Shown: positions 3,348-17,176 of the stretch, piece after piece
Position numbering within the stretch: the stretch's first letter is position 1
Layout: each line of letters begins with the position of its first letter
Source of the DNA: Aequorivita iocasae
GTDB lineage: Bacteria; Bacteroidota; Bacteroidia; Flavobacteriales; Flavobacteriaceae
Direction of reading: 5' to 3'
NCBI RefSeq assembly: GCF_016757735.1
Contig: NZ_CP068439.1
Span: 1,798,001-1,862,000, forward strand
DNA length: 64,000 nt
The notes under the pieces: model-generated
Seen by the model: only the letters and a program-made list of their open reading frames with translations
Told to the model about the DNA's origin: nothing
The model's database searches: none
Translations under genes and position numbers: made by a program

Positions 3348-3367
3348 GATTGTTTTATTTTGCGGTA

Positions 3368-4462
3368 ATGTCCCGAATTGCGTTTTTAGTGGTTTTTCTC
3401 ACAACTTCTTTTGTTTTTTCACAGGAAAAAAACAAGGATTTTTTTGTGGACGCCAATTATTTCTACGGAACCATTCTTCGGCACAATAAGGATATTTCAC
3501 ATTTGGTAAAAGCCCATCCCGATGGTTTTATTATTGGTTTTAACCGAAAAACCTACGGAGCCGAACGATGGCAACAGGAATATAACTATCCCGATTGGGG
3601 TTTTTCTTTCGTGCATCAAAATGCGCATTACGATGTTTTGGGTGAAAATTATGGGCTGTACGGGCATTTCAATTTTTACTTTTTAAAGCGAAATCTTTTT
3701 TTCCGAATAGGGCAGGGTATTGCATACAATACCAATCCGTTTGACTTAGAAACCAATTTTAAAAATAATGCTTACGGTACCCGTTTGTTGAGTTCAACCT
3801 ATTTGATGCTGAATTACAACAAGCAAAATCTTTTCAAAAACTTCGGGGTTCAGGCGGGGATTGCTTTAGTGCATTATTCAAATGGAAATTTTAAGGCGCC
3901 AAATTCCAGTACAAATGCGTTCACTCTAAATGTTGGTGTGCAATATTCCGTTGCCGATGAAAGAAATCCGGAATACATTTCCGATTCACTTTCGAATAAA
4001 ATTACAGAACCTATAAAATACAACTTTGTGCTTCGCGGCGGTTTGAATGAAAGTGATTATTTAAACCTGGGCCAGCATCCCTTTTTTGTTGTTTCTGCCT
4101 TTGCAGACAAGCGGTTGAGCTATAAAAGTACGATTCAGTTGGGCGCAGATTTTTTTTATTTACCATTTCTGAAAAAGGAAATAGAATACCTTTCCGTTGC
4201 TTTTCCCAGTTTTGGCGTAAAAGGCGATGAAGATTTTAAGCGGGTGGGAATTTTTGCCGGTCACGAACTTCGAATCAACCAATTGGCAGTGGTTTCACAA
4301 GCCGGATATTACGTTTATTATCCCTACGATTTTGAAGGACGAACTTATTTTCGCGCGGGGTTGAAATATTATTTTACTGATAAGCTTTTCACTGCAATCA
4401 CATTAAAATCACATGGAGCGAAAGTGGAAGGCGTTGAATTTGGTGTAGGAATTAGAATATAG
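3368..4462 (+). CDS. PagL-like acyloxyacyl hydrolase family outer-membrane protein, cassette copy 1
   Basis: A 364-residue predicted outer-membrane barrel with signal peptide MSRIAFLVVFLTTSFVFSQ. The motif HYSNGNFKAPN matches the His-x-Ser signature of the PagL/acyloxyacyl hydrolase family, which removes ester-linked acyl chains from lipid A. It is about twice as long as Pseudomonas PagL; the C-terminal half is further beta-strand-rich sequence. The start is the ATG at 3368; a TTG at 3350 would precede the signal peptide. A DUF2807 lipoprotein follows 3 bp downstream, and the same gene pair recurs at 5246-7133. Function is inferred from the family motif only. Confidence 0.75.
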   Translation: MSRIAFLVVFLTTSFVFSQEKNKDFFVDANYFYGTILRHNKDISHLVKAHPDGFIIGFNRKTYGAERWQQEYNYPDWGFSFVHQNAHYDVLGENYGLYGHFNFYFLKRNLFFRIGQGIAYNTNPFDLETNFKNNAYGTRLLSSTYLMLNYNKQNLFKNFGVQAGIALVHYSNGNFKAPNSSTNAFTLNVGVQYSVADERNPEYISDSLSNKITEPIKYNFVLRGGLNESDYLNLGQHPFFVVSAFADKRLSYKSTIQLGADFFYLPFLKKEIEYLSVAFPSFGVKGDEDFKRVGIFAGHELRINQLAVVSQAGYYVYYPYDFEGRTYFRAGLKYYFTDKLFTAITLKSHGAKVEGVEFGVGIRI

Positions 4463-4465
4463 TTT

Positions 4466-5218
4466 ATGAAGAAATTGGTATGTATGGTATTGGTTTTTTT
4501 GTTGCTTTCGTGCGATTCCGAAAACGGGTGGGATTGTGTGCAAGCGGCAGGAGATTCAATTTCCAAAGAATATGTTGTTTCAGATTTTTCAAAAATCAGG
4601 ATTGAGGACGATGTGACATTATATTTGAAACAGGGCGATTCTACAAAAATAATTCTTGAAACCGGCGAAAACCTCTTGAGCGATATTTTCGTAAGGGTTG
4701 AAGGAAATACTTTGGTGGTGAAAGATAGAAATGCTTGCAATCTGGTTCGCGATTACGGAATTACAAAAGTTTTTGTAACAGCGTCGAACATCACAGAAAT
4801 CAGGAATAGTTCAGCTTACGATGTAATTGGTGAAGGCATTTTACATTTTCCAAAGCTTACTTTAGTCAGCAATAGCAGTGCCGGGCCAGAAAACATACGT
4901 AAAAGTGGCGATTTTTATTTGAATTTGAACGTTGAGGAATTTCAGGTAGCAGCCAATGGGCAGAGCGTTTTTTATATTTCGGGAAAGGCTGGCAAGGCCA
5001 ATATAAATTTTGCGGACGAATTTCCACGTTTTGAAGGCAAAGATTTTCTAATTGATGAACTTAATGTTTTCCAAAGAAGTGCTAACAAAATGATTGTAAA
5101 TCCACAACAAAGTATCGTCGGAAAAATCGTGGCAACGGGCGACATTATTAGCCACAATCGCCCGCAGTTGGTAGATGTAAAAGAATTATTCACGGGCAGG
5201 CTATTATTTAAAGATTAG
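4466..5218 (+). CDS. DUF2807 (GIN-domain) lipoprotein, cassette copy 1
   Basis: A 250-residue lipoprotein. The signal peptide ends at lipobox LLLSC (Cys16) and is followed by SENGWDC. The rest looks like a DUF2807/head-GIN-type right-handed beta fold: repeated short strands with motifs such as FSKIRIEDDVTLYLKQGD and ILETGENLL, typical of that family in Bacteroidota. The biochemical role is unknown. It starts 3 bp after the PagL-like gene, so the two are translationally close. Its paralogue lies at 6384-7133; both share ETGENL, CNLVRDY and ISxNRP near the end. Confidence 0.7.
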   Translation: MKKLVCMVLVFLLLSCDSENGWDCVQAAGDSISKEYVVSDFSKIRIEDDVTLYLKQGDSTKIILETGENLLSDIFVRVEGNTLVVKDRNACNLVRDYGITKVFVTASNITEIRNSSAYDVIGEGILHFPKLTLVSNSSAGPENIRKSGDFYLNLNVEEFQVAANGQSVFYISGKAGKANINFADEFPRFEGKDFLIDELNVFQRSANKMIVNPQQSIVGKIVATGDIISHNRPQLVDVKELFTGRLLFKD

Positions 5219-5245
5219 TTTATCTTTACTGGCGTTGAAAAAAAT

Positions 5246-6355
5246 ATGAAGCACCTTCTTTCCGTAATTTCAGTCCTATTTATAAGTCTTTCGCTTTTTT
5301 CACAAGAAGAAGAATTGAAACCAATTTCACTGGAGGCAGATTTTTTCTACGGAAGTATTCTGGAGCACAATCCGGATATTGAGCACTTAATTACCGGACA
5401 TCCCACAGGGTTTATTCTTTCCTTTAATCGAAAAACCTATGGGTTTAATGAATGGGAACGTCGCTATAATTATCCAGATTGGGGTTTTACGGTTGCTTAC
5501 CAAAGCATGCACAACAAATATTTGGGAGATGTTGTGGGAGCATATGGACATATTAACTGGTATTTTTTAAACAGACATTTTATGCTTCGCGTGGGCCAGG
5601 GAATTGCCTGTGCTGCCACTCCGTATGATGCTGTAAACAATTTTGATAACAATGCCTACGGGACATATTTATTGAGTACCACATTGTTAAAAGGGAATTT
5701 TGTACGCGAAAATATTTGGAAAGGTCTTGGTTTTCACGCTGGTTTCACTGTTATCCATTATAGTAACGCAAATTTTAAGGCGCCAAACAACAGTACAAAT
5801 ACTTTTGCGCTGAACGCTGGGGTAAGTTATCAGTTGGGTTATAAAGAATTTCCAGAATATATAAAAAAAGAAGATTCGCTTAGCAGAACACACGCTGAGC
5901 GTGTAAAGTTCAATTTTGCCTTTCGGACTGGCGTTAATGAAAGTGATGTGGTTGGGCTCGGGCAGGAACCCTTTTATGTAGCTTCATTTTTTGCCGATAA
6001 ACGCATAAACTATAAAAGCACATTTACCGCTGGGGTAGATGTTTTCTTTTCTACTTTTTTAAAGGAATTGATCAATTATCGCTCTATCGCTTACCCTGAA
6101 GACGGTCTTTCTGGTGATGAAGATTACAAGCGGGTTGGGGTTTTTGTGGGTCACGAATGGCGTTTCAATAAAGTGGCCTTTGTTTCGCAGTTAGGGTATT
6201 ATGTATATTGGCCCTATGAATTTGAAAACCGAGTTTATAACCGTTTGGGGTTGAAAAGATATTTTTTCAGTGATAAGGTATTTGCCGCGGTAACCGTTCA
6301 TGCGCATTGGGCGAAGGCCGAAGCTGTGGAATTTGGCGTTGGTTACCGATTGTAA
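5246..6355 (+). CDS. PagL-like acyloxyacyl hydrolase family outer-membrane protein, cassette copy 2
   Basis: A 369-residue paralogue of the gene at 3368. It has signal peptide MKHLLSVISVLFISLSLFSQ and shares FYGSILEHNPDI, NRKTYG, YNYPDWGF, NNAYGT, LLST and HYSNANFKAPN, which holds the His-x-Ser signature. The C-terminus again reads VEFGVGYRL, against VEFGVGIRI in copy 1, ending in a beta strand with terminal hydrophobic residues. Conservation of the catalytic signature in both copies argues that both are active. Lipid A deacylation is inferred from the family. Confidence 0.75.
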   Translation: MKHLLSVISVLFISLSLFSQEEELKPISLEADFFYGSILEHNPDIEHLITGHPTGFILSFNRKTYGFNEWERRYNYPDWGFTVAYQSMHNKYLGDVVGAYGHINWYFLNRHFMLRVGQGIACAATPYDAVNNFDNNAYGTYLLSTTLLKGNFVRENIWKGLGFHAGFTVIHYSNANFKAPNNSTNTFALNAGVSYQLGYKEFPEYIKKEDSLSRTHAERVKFNFAFRTGVNESDVVGLGQEPFYVASFFADKRINYKSTFTAGVDVFFSTFLKELINYRSIAYPEDGLSGDEDYKRVGVFVGHEWRFNKVAFVSQLGYYVYWPYEFENRVYNRLGLKRYFFSDKVFAAVTVHAHWAKAEAVEFGVGYRL

Positions 6356-6383
6356 AATTCTGAAATTTTCAGAAATAATAAAT

Positions 6384-7133
6384 ATGAAGAATTTAGTTTA
6401 CGCTTTATTGATTTTGTTTTTTGCTGGATGTAGTTCAGATTCGGGCTGGAACTGTATCCAGACATCCGGAGATATTGTACAGAAAGAAGTTATGGTACCT
6501 TCATTTACCAAAATATTGGTATGGGAACGTACCAAAGTATTCATCCAGCAGGGTGACGTTCAAAAAGTAATTATTGAAACTGGCGAAAATTTAATGAACG
6601 ATGTGGAGGTTTCGGTAACCGACGGGATGCTTGAAATTCACAACAATAATAGTTGCAATTTGGTTCGCGATTATGAGCTTACAAAAGTTTATATAACATC
6701 CCCTAATATTTCTGAAATTAGAAGCAGCACCGGTTATGCTATTGAAAGCATCGGGGTACTTAATTACCCTTCATTGACACTTTTATCCGAAGACCAACAG
6801 AACGAAGATCAGTATCACATTGACGGTGATTTTAAATTGAATTTGAATGTACAAAGTTTGAGTGTTGTGGCAAACGGACTCTCCAAATTTTATTTAAAGG
6901 GAAGTGCAACAAACACCAATTTTGGTCTGTACGCGGGCGATTGCCGAATTTTTGCTGAAAATTTAACTGTACAAAATCTATATGTTTATCATCGAAGTAC
7001 AGGTGAAATGGTAGTAAATCCACAACTGGCCATTCGCGGCAAGATTGTGAGTTTGGGTAACGTTATTTCCAAAAACAGACCTTCAATCGTTGAGGTTGAA
7101 GAGCTCTATCGCGGCAAGCTTATTTTTGAATAG
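6384..7133 (+). CDS. DUF2807 (GIN-domain) lipoprotein, cassette copy 2
   Basis: A 249-residue lipoprotein with signal peptide MKNLVYALLILFFAGC (Cys16) followed by SSDSGWNC, parallel to the first copy. It shares IIETGENLMNDVEV, NSCNLVRDYELTKVYI and the terminal ISKNRPSIVEVEELYRGKL. The start is the ATG at 6384; the frame is open to 6300, but that part overlaps the upstream gene and would place the signal peptide internally. Its last 14 bp overlap the end of the convergent gldA gene. Function unknown. Confidence 0.7.
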   Translation: MKNLVYALLILFFAGCSSDSGWNCIQTSGDIVQKEVMVPSFTKILVWERTKVFIQQGDVQKVIIETGENLMNDVEVSVTDGMLEIHNNNSCNLVRDYELTKVYITSPNISEIRSSTGYAIESIGVLNYPSLTLLSEDQQNEDQYHIDGDFKLNLNVQSLSVVANGLSKFYLKGSATNTNFGLYAGDCRIFAENLTVQNLYVYHRSTGEMVVNPQLAIRGKIVSLGNVISKNRPSIVEVEELYRGKLIFE

Positions 7134-8040: not shown

Positions 8041-8138
8041 CATAAATTTTCTTCTGAAGTGTTTATGCTTCGCGATTTAAAATTTTTCCTAAAACGTTTT
8101 CCGGCTCACAATTATTGGCTACTTTAGCGGCTATGATT

Positions 8139-8198
8139 ATGAAACCTATTTACAATTTTTCCAAAGCGTGGTGGCATATGTTCCAAAACATTCGCTAA
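8139..8198 (+). CDS. Putative aromatic-rich leader peptide of an attenuator
   Basis: A 19-codon ORF that reads MKPIYNFSKAWWHMFQNIR and then TAA (8196-8198); an ATG at 8133 would add two residues. Five of the 19 residues are aromatic, including adjacent Trp codons at 8169-8174. It ends 36 bases before an intrinsic terminator, and the gene behind that is the DAHP synthase-chorismate mutase. The peptide itself need not have a function: translation through Tyr, Phe and Trp codons would sense charged aromatic tRNAs. This is inference from architecture; no homologue is known to me. Confidence 0.65.
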   Translation: MKPIYNFSKAWWHMFQNIR

Positions 8199-8256
8199 TT
8201 GGGATTATTGTATTTTAAAATATACTTTTGAAAAGTCCCATTTTGGGGCTTTTTTT
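8181..8256 (+). promoter_or_regulatory. Putative ribosome-mediated attenuator of the DAHP synthase gene
   Basis: Four segments can pair in mutually exclusive ways. Segment 1, TTCCAA (8181-8186), pairs with segment 2, TTGGGA (8199-8204). TGGGATT (8200-8206, segment 2) pairs over 7 positions with AGTCCCA (8234-8240, segment 3). Segment 3, AGTCCC (8234-8239), pairs with segment 4, GGGGCT (8245-8250), as the terminator. Segment 1 lies in the leader codons just after Trp-Trp, and the leader stop abuts segment 2. A ribosome stalled at the Trp codons would cover segment 1 and favour 2:3 antitermination; one reaching the stop would cover 1 and 2 and allow termination. Confidence 0.65.
8231..8256 (+). 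terminator. Intrinsic terminator before the DAHP synthase gene
   Basis: The stem AGTCCC/GGGGCT (8234-8239 with 8245-8250) is extended by three A-T pairs, has the loop ATTTT and runs into seven T residues ending at 8256. It ends 14 bases before the ATG at 8271. No ordinary upstream gene on the plus strand needs it, so it most likely serves the attenuator. Confidence 0.8.
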
Positions 8257-8270
8257 ATGAAATTGACTTT

Positions 8271-9353
8271 ATGGAAAACAAAAAAGAACTGCGCAATTGG
8301 TTAGATGCCTTTGGGTTAAACCATCCACTTGTAATTGCGGGGCCTTGCAGTGCCGAAACTGAGGAGCAACTGCTGAAAATAGCGCATCAATTGAAGGATA
8401 CAGACACTTCTGTATTGCGCGCTGGCATTTGGAAACCAAGAACTCGCCCGGGTAACTTTGAGGGCGTTGGCGCTTTGGGCCTAAAATGGCTTCAAAAGGC
8501 AAAGCAAGAAACCGGATTGCTCACAACCACTGAAGTTGCAAACGCAAACCACGTAGATTTGGCACTACAGCACGATGTAGATATTTTGTGGATTGGCGCG
8601 CGCACTACGGTTTCGCCTTTTATTGTACAGGAAATTGCAGATGCGGTAAAGGGAACTGATAAAATAGTGTTGGTGAAGAACCCGGTGAACCCAGATTTGG
8701 CGTTGTGGTTGGGTGCTGTGGAACGATTTTATACCGCCGGAATTACCAAGCTTGGGGTAATCCACCGTGGTTTTTCTACTTATGAAAAAACGCGTTATCG
8801 CAACAATCCCGAATGGCAGATTCCTATTGACCTTCAAAACACATTTCCAGATTTACCACTTATTTTGGATCCCTCGCACATTGCGGGCAGACGCGATATT
8901 ATTTTTGACCTTTGCCAAACTGCGCTCGATCTAAACTATGATGGGTTGATGATTGAAACACACTTTGACCCGGACAACGCGTGGAGCGACGCGAAACAGC
9001 AAATCACGCCCCAGGCTTTGGAAAAAATGACGGTGGATCTAAAAATCCGAAAAGTAGAGGGGGACGAGGCAGAGTTCAACAATCAATTAAATACATTGCG
9101 GACTCAGATTGATTTAATAGACGATCAAATCATGGACATGTTGGGCAAGCGGATGAAGATAGTTGACGGAATTGGCGCTTTGAAAAAGAAAAACAATGTT
9201 GCCATTTTACAGGTGAAACGATGGAATGAGGTGCTCGGCAGGATGATTTTGGAAGGCGAACAAAACAAGCTCAGCGAAGAATTTGTTCTAAAAATATACA
9301 AAGCCATTCACCAAGAGTCCATAAATCACCAAAAAAAGATAATAAACGGATAA
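8271..9353 (+). CDS. Bifunctional 3-deoxy-7-phosphoheptulonate synthase / chorismate mutase
   Basis: A 360-residue fusion. The N-terminal part (about 1-260) is a type I-beta DAHP synthase, which condenses phosphoenolpyruvate and erythrose 4-phosphate at the entry of the shikimate pathway. Its motifs are VIAGPCSAE, RAGIWKPRTRPG, WIGARTT, VKNPVN, DPSHIAG and ETHFDP. Residues about 270-355 form an AroQ-class chorismate mutase (LRTQIDLIDDQIMDMLGKRM, then a VKRW segment), which converts chorismate to prephenate and often acts as the feedback-sensing domain. Bacteroidota typically carry the mutase at this C-terminal position. The upstream leader and terminator suggest attenuation. rsgA and dtd follow downstream, a common flavobacterial order; pheA and tyrA are not here. 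Confidence 0.93.
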   Translation: MENKKELRNWLDAFGLNHPLVIAGPCSAETEEQLLKIAHQLKDTDTSVLRAGIWKPRTRPGNFEGVGALGLKWLQKAKQETGLLTTTEVANANHVDLALQHDVDILWIGARTTVSPFIVQEIADAVKGTDKIVLVKNPVNPDLALWLGAVERFYTAGITKLGVIHRGFSTYEKTRYRNNPEWQIPIDLQNTFPDLPLILDPSHIAGRRDIIFDLCQTALDLNYDGLMIETHFDPDNAWSDAKQQITPQALEKMTVDLKIRKVEGDEAEFNNQLNTLRTQIDLIDDQIMDMLGKRMKIVDGIGALKKKNNVAILQVKRWNEVLGRMILEGEQNKLSEEFVLKIYKAIHQESINHQKKIING

Positions 9354-15692: not shown

Positions 15693-15935
15693 ATGTTCAA
15701 AAAAGTTATAAATACAAAGGGCTTTTGGAAATCGGTGTTTGCGCTTGCCATTGCTTTCGTGGTGCTTTTTTCACTTATTAAATGGGCCATAGAAGGTTTT
15801 GAAATAGCTTATTTCACCGAACAAAACCCGGTACTATTTTTCCTCACCCTTTTTGTAGCGGGGTTTGTTTATGGTTTTTTTGTCACTTTCGGAAAATTTA
15901 GAGCAAAGCTTAAGGAAAAGGATTCTGGGCAATGA
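15693..15935 (+). CDS. Small two-helix membrane protein
   Basis: An 80-residue protein with two hydrophobic segments, about 12-34 (SVFALAIAFVVLFSLIKWAI) and about 46-66 (PVLFFLTLFVAGFVYGFFVT), and a basic, lysine-rich C-terminus. It begins directly after the pyrophosphohydrolase stop codon and overlaps the aroA start by 4 bp, which supports real translation. I recognise no named family. Similar short proteins are found beside aroA in other Flavobacteriia, to my recollection, but function is unknown. Confidence 0.75.
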   Translation: MFKKVINTKGFWKSVFALAIAFVVLFSLIKWAIEGFEIAYFTEQNPVLFFLTLFVAGFVYGFFVTFGKFRAKLKEKDSGQ

Positions 15936-17176
15936 AAGCCATTCTAAAACGTGGAGAGCTTCCTTCGGAAAATATAAAAATCAATATCGGCGGTTCAAAA
16001 AGCGAATCGAACCGCCTATTGATCCTTCAGGCACAATTTCCAAATATTTCTATTGAAAATCTATCGGAAAGTGACGATTCTACAGTACTCAAAAAGGCAT
16101 TGAACGTCATAAACGGAACGGTGGATGTGCACCATGCCGGCACCGCCATGCGTTTCTTGACGGCTTACTTTGCTGCAAAGGAGGGCGCGGCTATATTGCT
16201 CACCGGTAGCCAGCGTATGCAGCAACGCCCCATAGGTATTTTGGTGGAAGCACTCAGAAATTTGGGCGCTGATATTGCATTTGTTAAAAATGAAGGTTTC
16301 CCGCCTCTAAAAATAAAGGGAAAAAAACTTTTGAAAACTGAGGTAACCATCAAAGCAAACGTGAGCAGTCAGTATATTTCTGCATTGATGCTCATGGCGC
16401 CCATGTTGCCCCATGGGTTGAAAATTGTTTTAGACGGTAATACCACTTCCGTACCTTATATTGAAATGACCCTTTCACTGTTGAAAAAAATTGGAATTGA
16501 AAGCAGTTTTGCCAATAATGAAATCGTGGTTTCCGCTGCAAAAAATGTTGAAAAACAGTCTTTAATTGTGGAATCTGATTGGAGCTCAGCCTCTTATTTT
16601 TATAGTTTGGTTGCGCTTTCCGAAAGTCTTCAAGTCACATTAGGCAGCTTTTCAAGAGAAAGTTTACAGGGAGATGCCGCTTTGGCGCAACTCTATAATT
16701 CATTGGGCGTAGAAACGGTTTTTAATGCTTCTGAAAAAACCATATCACTTGTAAAAAAAGACATTCCCCTGCCAGATTCCTTGTTGCTCGATCTTTCTAA
16801 TACACCAGATTTGGCGCAAACTATTGCCGTAAGTTGTTTTGGTTTGGGAATAAGTTGTAGGCTGACGGGACTCCACACCTTAAAAATTAAGGAAACTGAC
16901 AGACTCTTGGCATTGAAAACTGAACTGGAAAAATTGGGCGCTACGGTTCAGATTGATGAAAATTCACTAAGTCTCGAAAAAACATCGCAGATTTATTTAA
17001 ATAAAACTATTGAAACGTATCAAGACCACCGAATGGCGATGGCTTTTGCACCCCTGGCTTTAAGAACGGAGCTTACCATTCAAAACGCTGAAGTAGTTTC
17101 AAAATCGTACCCAAATTTCTGGAAAGACCTTCAAAAAATTGGGGTGGTATGTGAGTTGGGCAGTTCCGCAAAATAG
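15932..17176 (+). CDS. aroA: 3-phosphoshikimate 1-carboxyvinyltransferase (EPSP synthase)
   Basis: A 414-residue enzyme joining phosphoenolpyruvate to shikimate 3-phosphate, the sixth shikimate-pathway step. GGSKSESNRLLIL is the N-terminal substrate motif, HAGTAMRFLTAYFA the phosphoenolpyruvate-binding loop, QRPIGILVEALRNLGA the glyphosate-site region, and KIKETDRLLALKTELEKLGA with YQDHRMAMA the C-terminal signatures. It is slightly shorter than the usual 425-430 residues. Together with the DAHP synthase at 8.3 kb it makes this stretch an aromatic biosynthesis neighbourhood. No terminator is visible after it. Confidence 0.95.
   Translation: MKAILKRGELPSENIKINIGGSKSESNRLLILQAQFPNISIENLSESDDSTVLKKALNVINGTVDVHHAGTAMRFLTAYFAAKEGAAILLTGSQRMQQRPIGILVEALRNLGADIAFVKNEGFPPLKIKGKKLLKTEVTIKANVSSQYISALMLMAPMLPHGLKIVLDGNTTSVPYIEMTLSLLKKIGIESSFANNEIVVSAAKNVEKQSLIVESDWSSASYFYSLVALSESLQVTLGSFSRESLQGDAALAQLYNSLGVETVFNASEKTISLVKKDIPLPDSLLLDLSNTPDLAQTIAVSCFGLGISCRLTGLHTLKIKETDRLLALKTELEKLGATVQIDENSLSLEKTSQIYLNKTIETYQDHRMAMAFAPLALRTELTIQNAEVVSKSYPNFWKDLQKIGVVCELGSSAK

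Follow-up and report, generated by a model that had tools for sequence, protein, structure and literature searches.

The window, as we refer to the whole 64,000-nucleotide stretch of Aequorivita iocasae DNA analysed here, carries on its forward strand a gene (8271..9353) for a 360-aa DAHP synthase fused to a type II chorismate mutase (PF00793 and PF01817), the product of which has its nearest named relatives in Aequorivita (97% identity in A. aquimaris). That the gene abutting the terminator described below catalyses the first shikimate step was part of the original prediction and is borne out by its start at 8271 and its two domains. A second shikimate-pathway gene, for EPSP synthase (PF00275), is found 6.6 kb downstream (15932-17176). 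Positions 3350-7133 hold a gene pair (encoding proteins of ~370 and ~250 aa) in two tandem copies, which adjoin an ABC gene and, judged by eye, look paralogous.

The DAHP synthase gene is preceded by a short leader ORF on the same strand (MIMKPIYNFSKAWWHMFQNIR; 8133..8198, stop codon 8196-8198), comprising 21 codons from the ATG at 8133 or 19 codons from the in-frame ATG at 8139 (MKPIYNFSKAWWHMFQNIR); the 19-codon version with its Tyr, Phe and Trp-Trp had been predicted and is read directly from the sequence. Its aromatic codons are one Tyr, two Phe and two Trp, the latter in tandem (TGG TGG, 8169..8174, forward strand) and kept in close relatives. Chance seldom produces an ATG ORF with Trp-Trp: 11 of 5000 dinucleotide shuffles of the stretch 8050-8231 contained one, and among the 695 window ORFs that start with ATG and span 8-45 codons, four have such a pair. 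Five aromatic codons altogether are not remarkable on their own, a number reached in 0.23 of shuffles. The genome harbours a second Trp leader before its own trpE (L200:1323-1440; G000:C1 near 458.5 kb), consisting of MNNFTQNTWWWKNLRKTS and a terminator; in addition, a predicted hairpin encloses Trp codons there.

Between leader and gene, an intrinsic terminator (8230..8256, forward strand) is formed by a stem (8230-8240/8244-8254) and a T run (8250-8256). A simple terminator scan called none at the leader, and the assignment builds instead on conservation and folding. All three alternative pairings proposed at the outset can be formed, namely 8181-8186 with 8199-8204 (6 pairs), 8200-8206 with 8234-8240 (7 pairs) and 8234-8239 with 8245-8250 (6 pairs); as folded, the terminator stem extends beyond the last of these. 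Segment 2 (8200..8206, forward strand), the 5' arm of the antiterminator, lies directly after the leader stop, as predicted, and segment 3 (8234..8240, forward strand) is common to antiterminator and terminator; the 2:3 pairing (TGGGATT/AGTCCCA) comprises seven pairs, one of them G-U. As a whole, the fold of 8131-8270 was equalled by 3 of 200 shuffles (z -2.66).

What did not hold up was the position of segment 1. The original prediction had placed it at 8181-8186 (forward strand), seven bases after the Trp codons; this stretch is complementary to 8199-8204, yet it paired with segment 2 with a probability of 0.0 in all 12 states folded, and it was dropped. A better candidate is an arm upstream of the Trp codons (8151..8164, forward strand), which pairs with 8199-8212 (8151-8156 with 8207-8212 and 8159-8164 with 8199-8204). 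Over 20 Trp-Trp leaders, the duplex energies at 8181-8186 ranged from -0.1 to -6.7 and the upstream arm was stronger in 19, in a comparison that is not strictly even as the stretches are longer for the upstream arm. Across the loci compared, an arm ahead of the control codons can pair with segment 2 as well as with the 3' flank of the latter. Its own pairing exceeded the mean of swapped partners at 18 of 25 loci without partner genes, 31 of 39 pheA-DAHP loci and 85 of 109 full-operon loci (classes as defined below), with a shuffle p≤0.05 only in 7, 5 and 32 loci, respectively.

We then folded the window leader in stages under constraints, with ribosome masks whose footprints are assumptions. 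With RNA made up to 8240-8246 and 8151-8184 masked, as by a ribosome on the Trp codons, the 2:3 pairing had a probability of 0.91-0.97; without a ribosome, or with one at the stop codon, it stayed at ≤0.01 before segment 4 was made. The antiterminator thus formed only if a ribosome masked 8151-8184, and without a ribosome the revised 1:2 pairing reached 0.95-0.98. Once segment 4 was present, the terminator had a probability of 0.98 in every state, the stalled mask included. Since the terminator wins at equilibrium even with a stalled ribosome, the decision of the switch must be kinetic, as it is in the classical trp case.

On these grounds, and on those of the comparisons below, we consider it very likely that a ribosome-mediated transcription attenuator controls the DAHP synthase-chorismate mutase gene via charged tRNA-Trp. 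When Trp is short, the ribosome would stall at TGG TGG (8169-8174) and mask segment 1, whereupon segment 2 could pair with segment 3 while segment 4 is still to be transcribed, and the polymerase would read on. When Trp is ample, a ribosome reaching the stop codon (8196-8198) would cover segment 2, allowing the 3:4 hairpin to form and transcription to terminate. If no ribosome is present, segment 1 would hold segment 2, leaving termination as the default.

Conservation of the leader across the family

Upstream regions were compared with one row per genome in 197 genomes, a non-random sample in which Aequorivita and TrpA-negative genomes (with some of their congeners) had been sought on purpose. 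Loci short of upstream sequence (e.g. G088, G142 and G357), one of the two G225 copies and the named loci L003-L082, in part duplicates of genomes already represented, were left out. Leaders were called as the most-aromatic ORF because a longest-ORF rule misframed some of them; for G127 and G099 this rule, too, picked a wrong frame, and their peptides were assigned manually from the sequence, while that of G295 was kept as called. An ATG-initiated leader ORF and a terminator precede the DAHP synthase-chorismate mutase gene or its operon in 180 of the 197 genomes.

The loci fall into 115 full operons (pheA-aminotransferase-tyrA-DAHP/CM, with the DAHP synthase gene last and, in many cases, the same ABC transporter gene in divergent orientation), 40 pheA-DAHP loci, 36 loci without partners and six others. 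The window's locus is one of those without partners, its gene standing without pheA, aminotransferase and tyrA. Typical leader peptides are MNTLNYTYYNWFYFFFSEKRETLYV for the full operon, MSTLFTFNNFWFFYFNDRTGIVV for pheA-DAHP and that of the window for the third group. Aromatic content averages 8.5 per leader vs 1.6 for the best ORF in shuffles, and the observed number was reached by ≤1 of 100 shuffles in 122 of 180 leaders (0.678) and by ≤5 of 100 in 155 (0.861). This conservation is the decisive evidence that the features seen before the window's gene are real.

The pairings can be followed over the same rows. Cells of the 3:4 stem are paired at 0.998 in full operons, 0.908 at pheA-DAHP loci and 0.994 at loci without partners (the last figure from 23 pheA-less rows), compared with shuffle maxima of 0.971, 0.879 and 0.988. 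Segment 2 scored a mean of 16.97 with its own segment 3, of 13.69 with swapped and of 11.27 with shuffled partners, and 169 of 180 own partners scored higher than the mean of the swapped ones. Of 168 rows, 64 had a 6-nt Watson-Crick complement of their own segment-3 class, and complements of other classes turned up in 26 of 1176 cases; with G-U allowed, these numbers were 129 of 168 and 166 of 1084, with 12 rows unclassed. This own-class signal is carried by segment-3 classes other than that of the window (GTCCCA, 13 genomes), for which the own 6-mer yielded 0.00 with Watson-Crick pairs and 0.38 with G-U, and the 6-mers of other classes up to 0.54. In MAFFT alignments, the 2:3 columns beat all shuffles only in full operons (0.828 vs 0.808), with no excess at pheA-DAHP loci (0.718; shuffle mean 0.730) or at loci without partners (0.842; shuffle maximum 0.854); as these columns were shifted in register, the register-free tests of own vs other partners were used beside them. 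An exclusive 2:3 antiterminator with compensating changes is hence found over the family, but not within the GTCCCA class. The original prediction of a leader-peptide attenuator thus stands with respect to conservation, 3:4 covariation, family-wide 2:3 pairing and staged folding, while its 2:3 component is weak within the window's own class.

The spacing of leader elements differs among the groups. Measured from the first base of the stop codon, the median start of segment 2 is 16 and 14 nt upstream for the two operon classes and 4 nt downstream at loci without partners; in each of the three classes, a terminating ribosome would cover it. A candidate -7 promoter box (TACTTTAG; 8120..8127, forward strand), assigned by its likeness to the Bacteroidota consensus TAnnTTTG, has its last base 5 nt from the ATG at 8133. 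Exactly this spacing between a TAnnTT[TA]G box and the leader ATG is found in 15 of the 21 boxed leaders without partner genes (26 leaders in total); median spacings are 17 nt at pheA-DAHP loci and 16 nt in full operons. Given a box position of -12 to -5, as stated in a Bacteroidota transcriptome report (PMC9723704), the +1 of the window would lie about one nucleotide before the ATG, leaving a 5' UTR of ~1 nt, and the leader peptide may hence be translated leaderless. This arrangement of the leaders without partner genes is apparently derived. Besides, two pheA-less relatives (L011 and L013) carry an old-type leader (MNTIFNFNNLWQFYFIK in L011) and a terminator well upstream of the DAHP synthase-chorismate mutase gene, within 430 nt, and a TAnnTTTG-like box in between, which possibly bypasses the attenuator.

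Leader codons and retained enzymes

With Tyr, Phe and Trp codons all present, the leader had originally been thought able to sense all three end products. The enzymes encoded in these genomes do not support this reading. A genome-wide profile search of the window genome returned no match for prephenate dehydratase (PF00800) or prephenate dehydrogenase (PF02153), and TrpA is present. No PF00800 match exists anywhere in 35 of the 36 genomes without partner genes (22 and 13 genomes), the exception being G050, which has one elsewhere in its genome and no leader; prephenate dehydrogenase is absent from all 22 of these genomes that were tested. Among pheA-DAHP genomes, 23 of 24 tested gave no above-cut-off match to prephenate dehydrogenase (in G001, a partial one scored 27.9 bits), and a biopterin-dependent hydroxylase (PF00351) is matched in 23 of 24, hence Tyr may come from Phe there. 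The chorismate mutase half is kept although nearly all partner-less genomes are without prephenate dehydratase and those tested without the dehydrogenase: all 33 of 33 near-invariant sites are retained in 19 of 24 TrpA-positive and 4 of 11 TrpA-negative genomes of this group. It may be retained for allostery or structure, or prephenate may be used by an unidentified enzyme.

The control codons vary along with these genes. Of 27 leaders at loci lacking pheA, 20 contain Trp-Trp, as opposed to none of 153 with pheA (with the hand-set peptides of G127 and G099). In TrpA-positive genomes, the mean numbers of Phe/Tyr/Trp codons are 5.04/3.70/0.75 in full operons (106 leaders), 5.89/1.95/1.03 at pheA-DAHP loci (38 leaders) and 1.45/1.36/1.73 without partners (22 leaders, before the two hand corrections). 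A tree was built from the DAHP synthase-chorismate mutase and the ABC protein of 95 genomes, as a tree of the ABC protein only had few supported branches; the combined tree, too, is weakly supported in large part (28 of 92 inner branches starred). In PGLS on 85 rows, which treats counts as Gaussian and gives rough p-values, Phe codons rose with prephenate dehydratase (+3.94, p=4e-18) and not with the dehydrogenase (p=0.89), Tyr codons with the dehydrogenase (+1.45, p=3e-3) and not with the dehydratase (p=0.90), and Trp codons were higher without the dehydratase (-0.73, p=2e-6), with a marginal effect of TrpA (+0.28, p=0.055). A rerun minus the long-branch rows (81 rows) gave alike results for all three (TrpA p=0.077). 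With phylogeny modelled, the Phe count of the leader thus follows prephenate dehydratase and the Tyr count prephenate dehydrogenase. Independent pairs pointed in the expected direction as well, yet differing pairs were too few for significance: same, opposite and no difference amounted to 3.2, 0.0 and 2.8 of 6 pairs for pheA, 2.7, 0.2 and 1.0 of 4 for tyrA, and 3.0, 0.0 and 4.0 of 7 for TrpA.

Sensing of all three aromatics by the window leader therefore appears improbable. All three kinds of codon are indeed there, and all three aromatics recur in many full-operon leaders of relatives, for which reason three-way sensing fits the ancestral operon better than the window. However, the window genome keeps TrpA and is without detected prephenate dehydratase or dehydrogenase; Phe and Tyr codons drop from the full-operon means to 1.45 and 1.36 where pheA is missing; near relatives without pheA keep the Trp-Trp pair but differ in Tyr and Phe; and TACAAT, the Tyr-Asn codons, doubles as one arm of a predicted helix. 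Sensing of Trp, the end product for which the window has tandem control codons, is most likely instead.

Trp-Trp leaders are scattered over the tree. They are found in the Aequorivita core, in G015 among pheA-bearing Aequorivita, in a clade with G300, G301 and G294, in G104, and in the distant G281 (on a long branch) and G285. The fewest changes required are 14 for pheA and 8 for Trp-Trp, and this scatter makes it likely that Trp-Trp leaders arose several times. The residues around the pair differ by clade (SKAWWHMF, LYWWHP, TIWWYI, NTWWSY), which bears on another conceivable action of the peptide. In TnaC, the ribosome is halted on the nascent peptide by free Trp, and in rTrpL, a leader RNA or peptide works in trans after its release; either mode seems very improbable for the window leader, and the clade-variable surroundings of Trp-Trp argue against a sequence-specific arrest peptide.

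Genomes were counted as TrpA-negative when they had no PF00290 match over the cut-off, with a sub-cut-off match in G067, G193 and G323. TrpA was absent in 7 of 80 chosen genomes, one of them 69% complete, and a search of 395 family genomes returned no match in 12 and matches below the cut-off in four more. Among genomes without partner genes, a Trp-bearing leader occurs in 22 of 25 TrpA-positive vs 2 of 11 TrpA-negative ones (Fisher p=1e-4, which ignores relatedness). An illustrative pair of sisters on the tree is G362 (TrpA-positive, FITFNNYWFFFF) and G214 (TrpA-negative, LITFNYYRFFFF), whose peptides differ at four residues, with Arg replacing Trp in the aromatic run of G214. The TrpA-negative G012 and G024 have leaders without Trp, and no leader was called by rule in the TrpA-negative G005, G050, G067, G079, G124, G293 and G396, nor in the TrpA-positive G068, G329 and G410. 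Exceptions exist: G015 and G285 have Trp-Trp without TrpA, G006, G009, G027 and G127 are without Trp-Trp, and, against a simple TrpA rule, 29 of 106 full-operon leaders in TrpA-positive genomes have no Trp.

Losses of this kind could also be taken to mean that ORF and terminator are a decaying remnant of the ancestral operon leader that no longer regulates. The rule-based absence of a leader in 7 of 11 TrpA-negative and 3 of 25 TrpA-positive partner-less genomes, the Trp-free leaders of G012 and G024, and the old-type leaders far upstream in L011 and L013 would suit such decay. We nonetheless hold it to be highly unlikely in the window, as the leaders of those 22 TrpA-positive partner-less genomes contain Trp, 18 of them as Trp-Trp—a pair that is absent where pheA is present—and as segments 3 and 4 are still paired across pheA-less rows.

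The preferred explanation is rewriting of a functional attenuator. Its ancestor would have been the leader of the pheA-aminotransferase-tyrA-DAHP/CM operon in the same place, rich in Phe and Tyr codons and often including Trp; upon loss of the Tyr and Phe genes, terminator and antiterminator would have been kept and the control codons rewritten to Trp-Trp. It is likely, then, that control codons have been rewritten enzyme by enzyme as aromatic pathways were pruned, a direction of change that we infer from the present distribution, and that the window represents a Trp-only stage reached several times independently. Under this scheme, Phe codons would probably go with prephenate dehydratase and Tyr codons with prephenate dehydrogenase, with Trp taking over on loss of the Phe branch. 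Loss of Trp synthesis would probably be followed by that of the Trp codons or of the leader as a whole.

Relation to known attenuators

The Escherichia coli trp attenuator combines tandem Trp codons in a short leader ORF with mutually exclusive 2:3 and 3:4 hairpins and a U run, and the window shares this design. Unlike it, the window leader would control DAHP synthase rather than trpE, and the segment 1 favoured here precedes the Trp codons. An Rfam scan gave no match at gathering thresholds at the leader; Trp_leader (RF00513) scored 18.8 bits against a cut-off of 41 and Phe_leader (RF01859) 19.1 bits against 55.

A leader-peptide attenuator has also been predicted before the DAHP synthase gene aroF of Corynebacterium glutamicum (PMC4046766). 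It differs in having Phe-Tyr-Phe instead of Trp-Trp residues and in belonging to another phylum, and the description of this attenuator gives no link to gene loss. The uORFC-13-1 motif, likewise a uORF with a terminator before aroF, contains a run of Phe codons and is described from Acholeplasma and environmental sequences only (PMC8632094). For Bacteroides thetaiotaomicron, an attenuator of the pheA-hisHb-aroA-aroQ-tyrA operon appears in a table of predictions drawn from a website (Table 7 in PMC1173090). It is possibly the same ancestral, operon-level attenuator; the table entry gives no leader peptide, and the pheA-less form is outside its coverage. Besides, transcriptome reports from Bacteroidota mention strong indications that operons for amino-acid biosynthesis are preceded by leader-peptide attenuators in Flavobacterium psychrophilum (PMC9723704) and short ORFs in 5' UTRs of B. 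thetaiotaomicron that are reminiscent of leader peptides (PMC7366714); these statements are general and do not name the aromatic operon. Thus, the attenuation mechanism is already known, whereas neither a DAHP synthase attenuator of the Trp-only kind nor a tie between such a form and gene loss appeared among the matches listed (titles and abstract starts, mostly of non-subscription literature).

In summary, the leader offers a natural experiment on regulatory specificity, in which one attenuator would change, in place, the amino acid it senses as the pathway behind it shrinks. Such changes span many genera, apparently through repeated losses, and the amino acid sensed by a leader becomes testable by comparison. 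This adds detail to attenuation in Bacteroidota, which the papers found here cover generally or as single predicted entries, and could make the leader a sequence marker for suspected auxotrophies in flavobacteria. If the proposed rewriting is true, the leader peptide would be a readable record of the amino acids that a species still makes.
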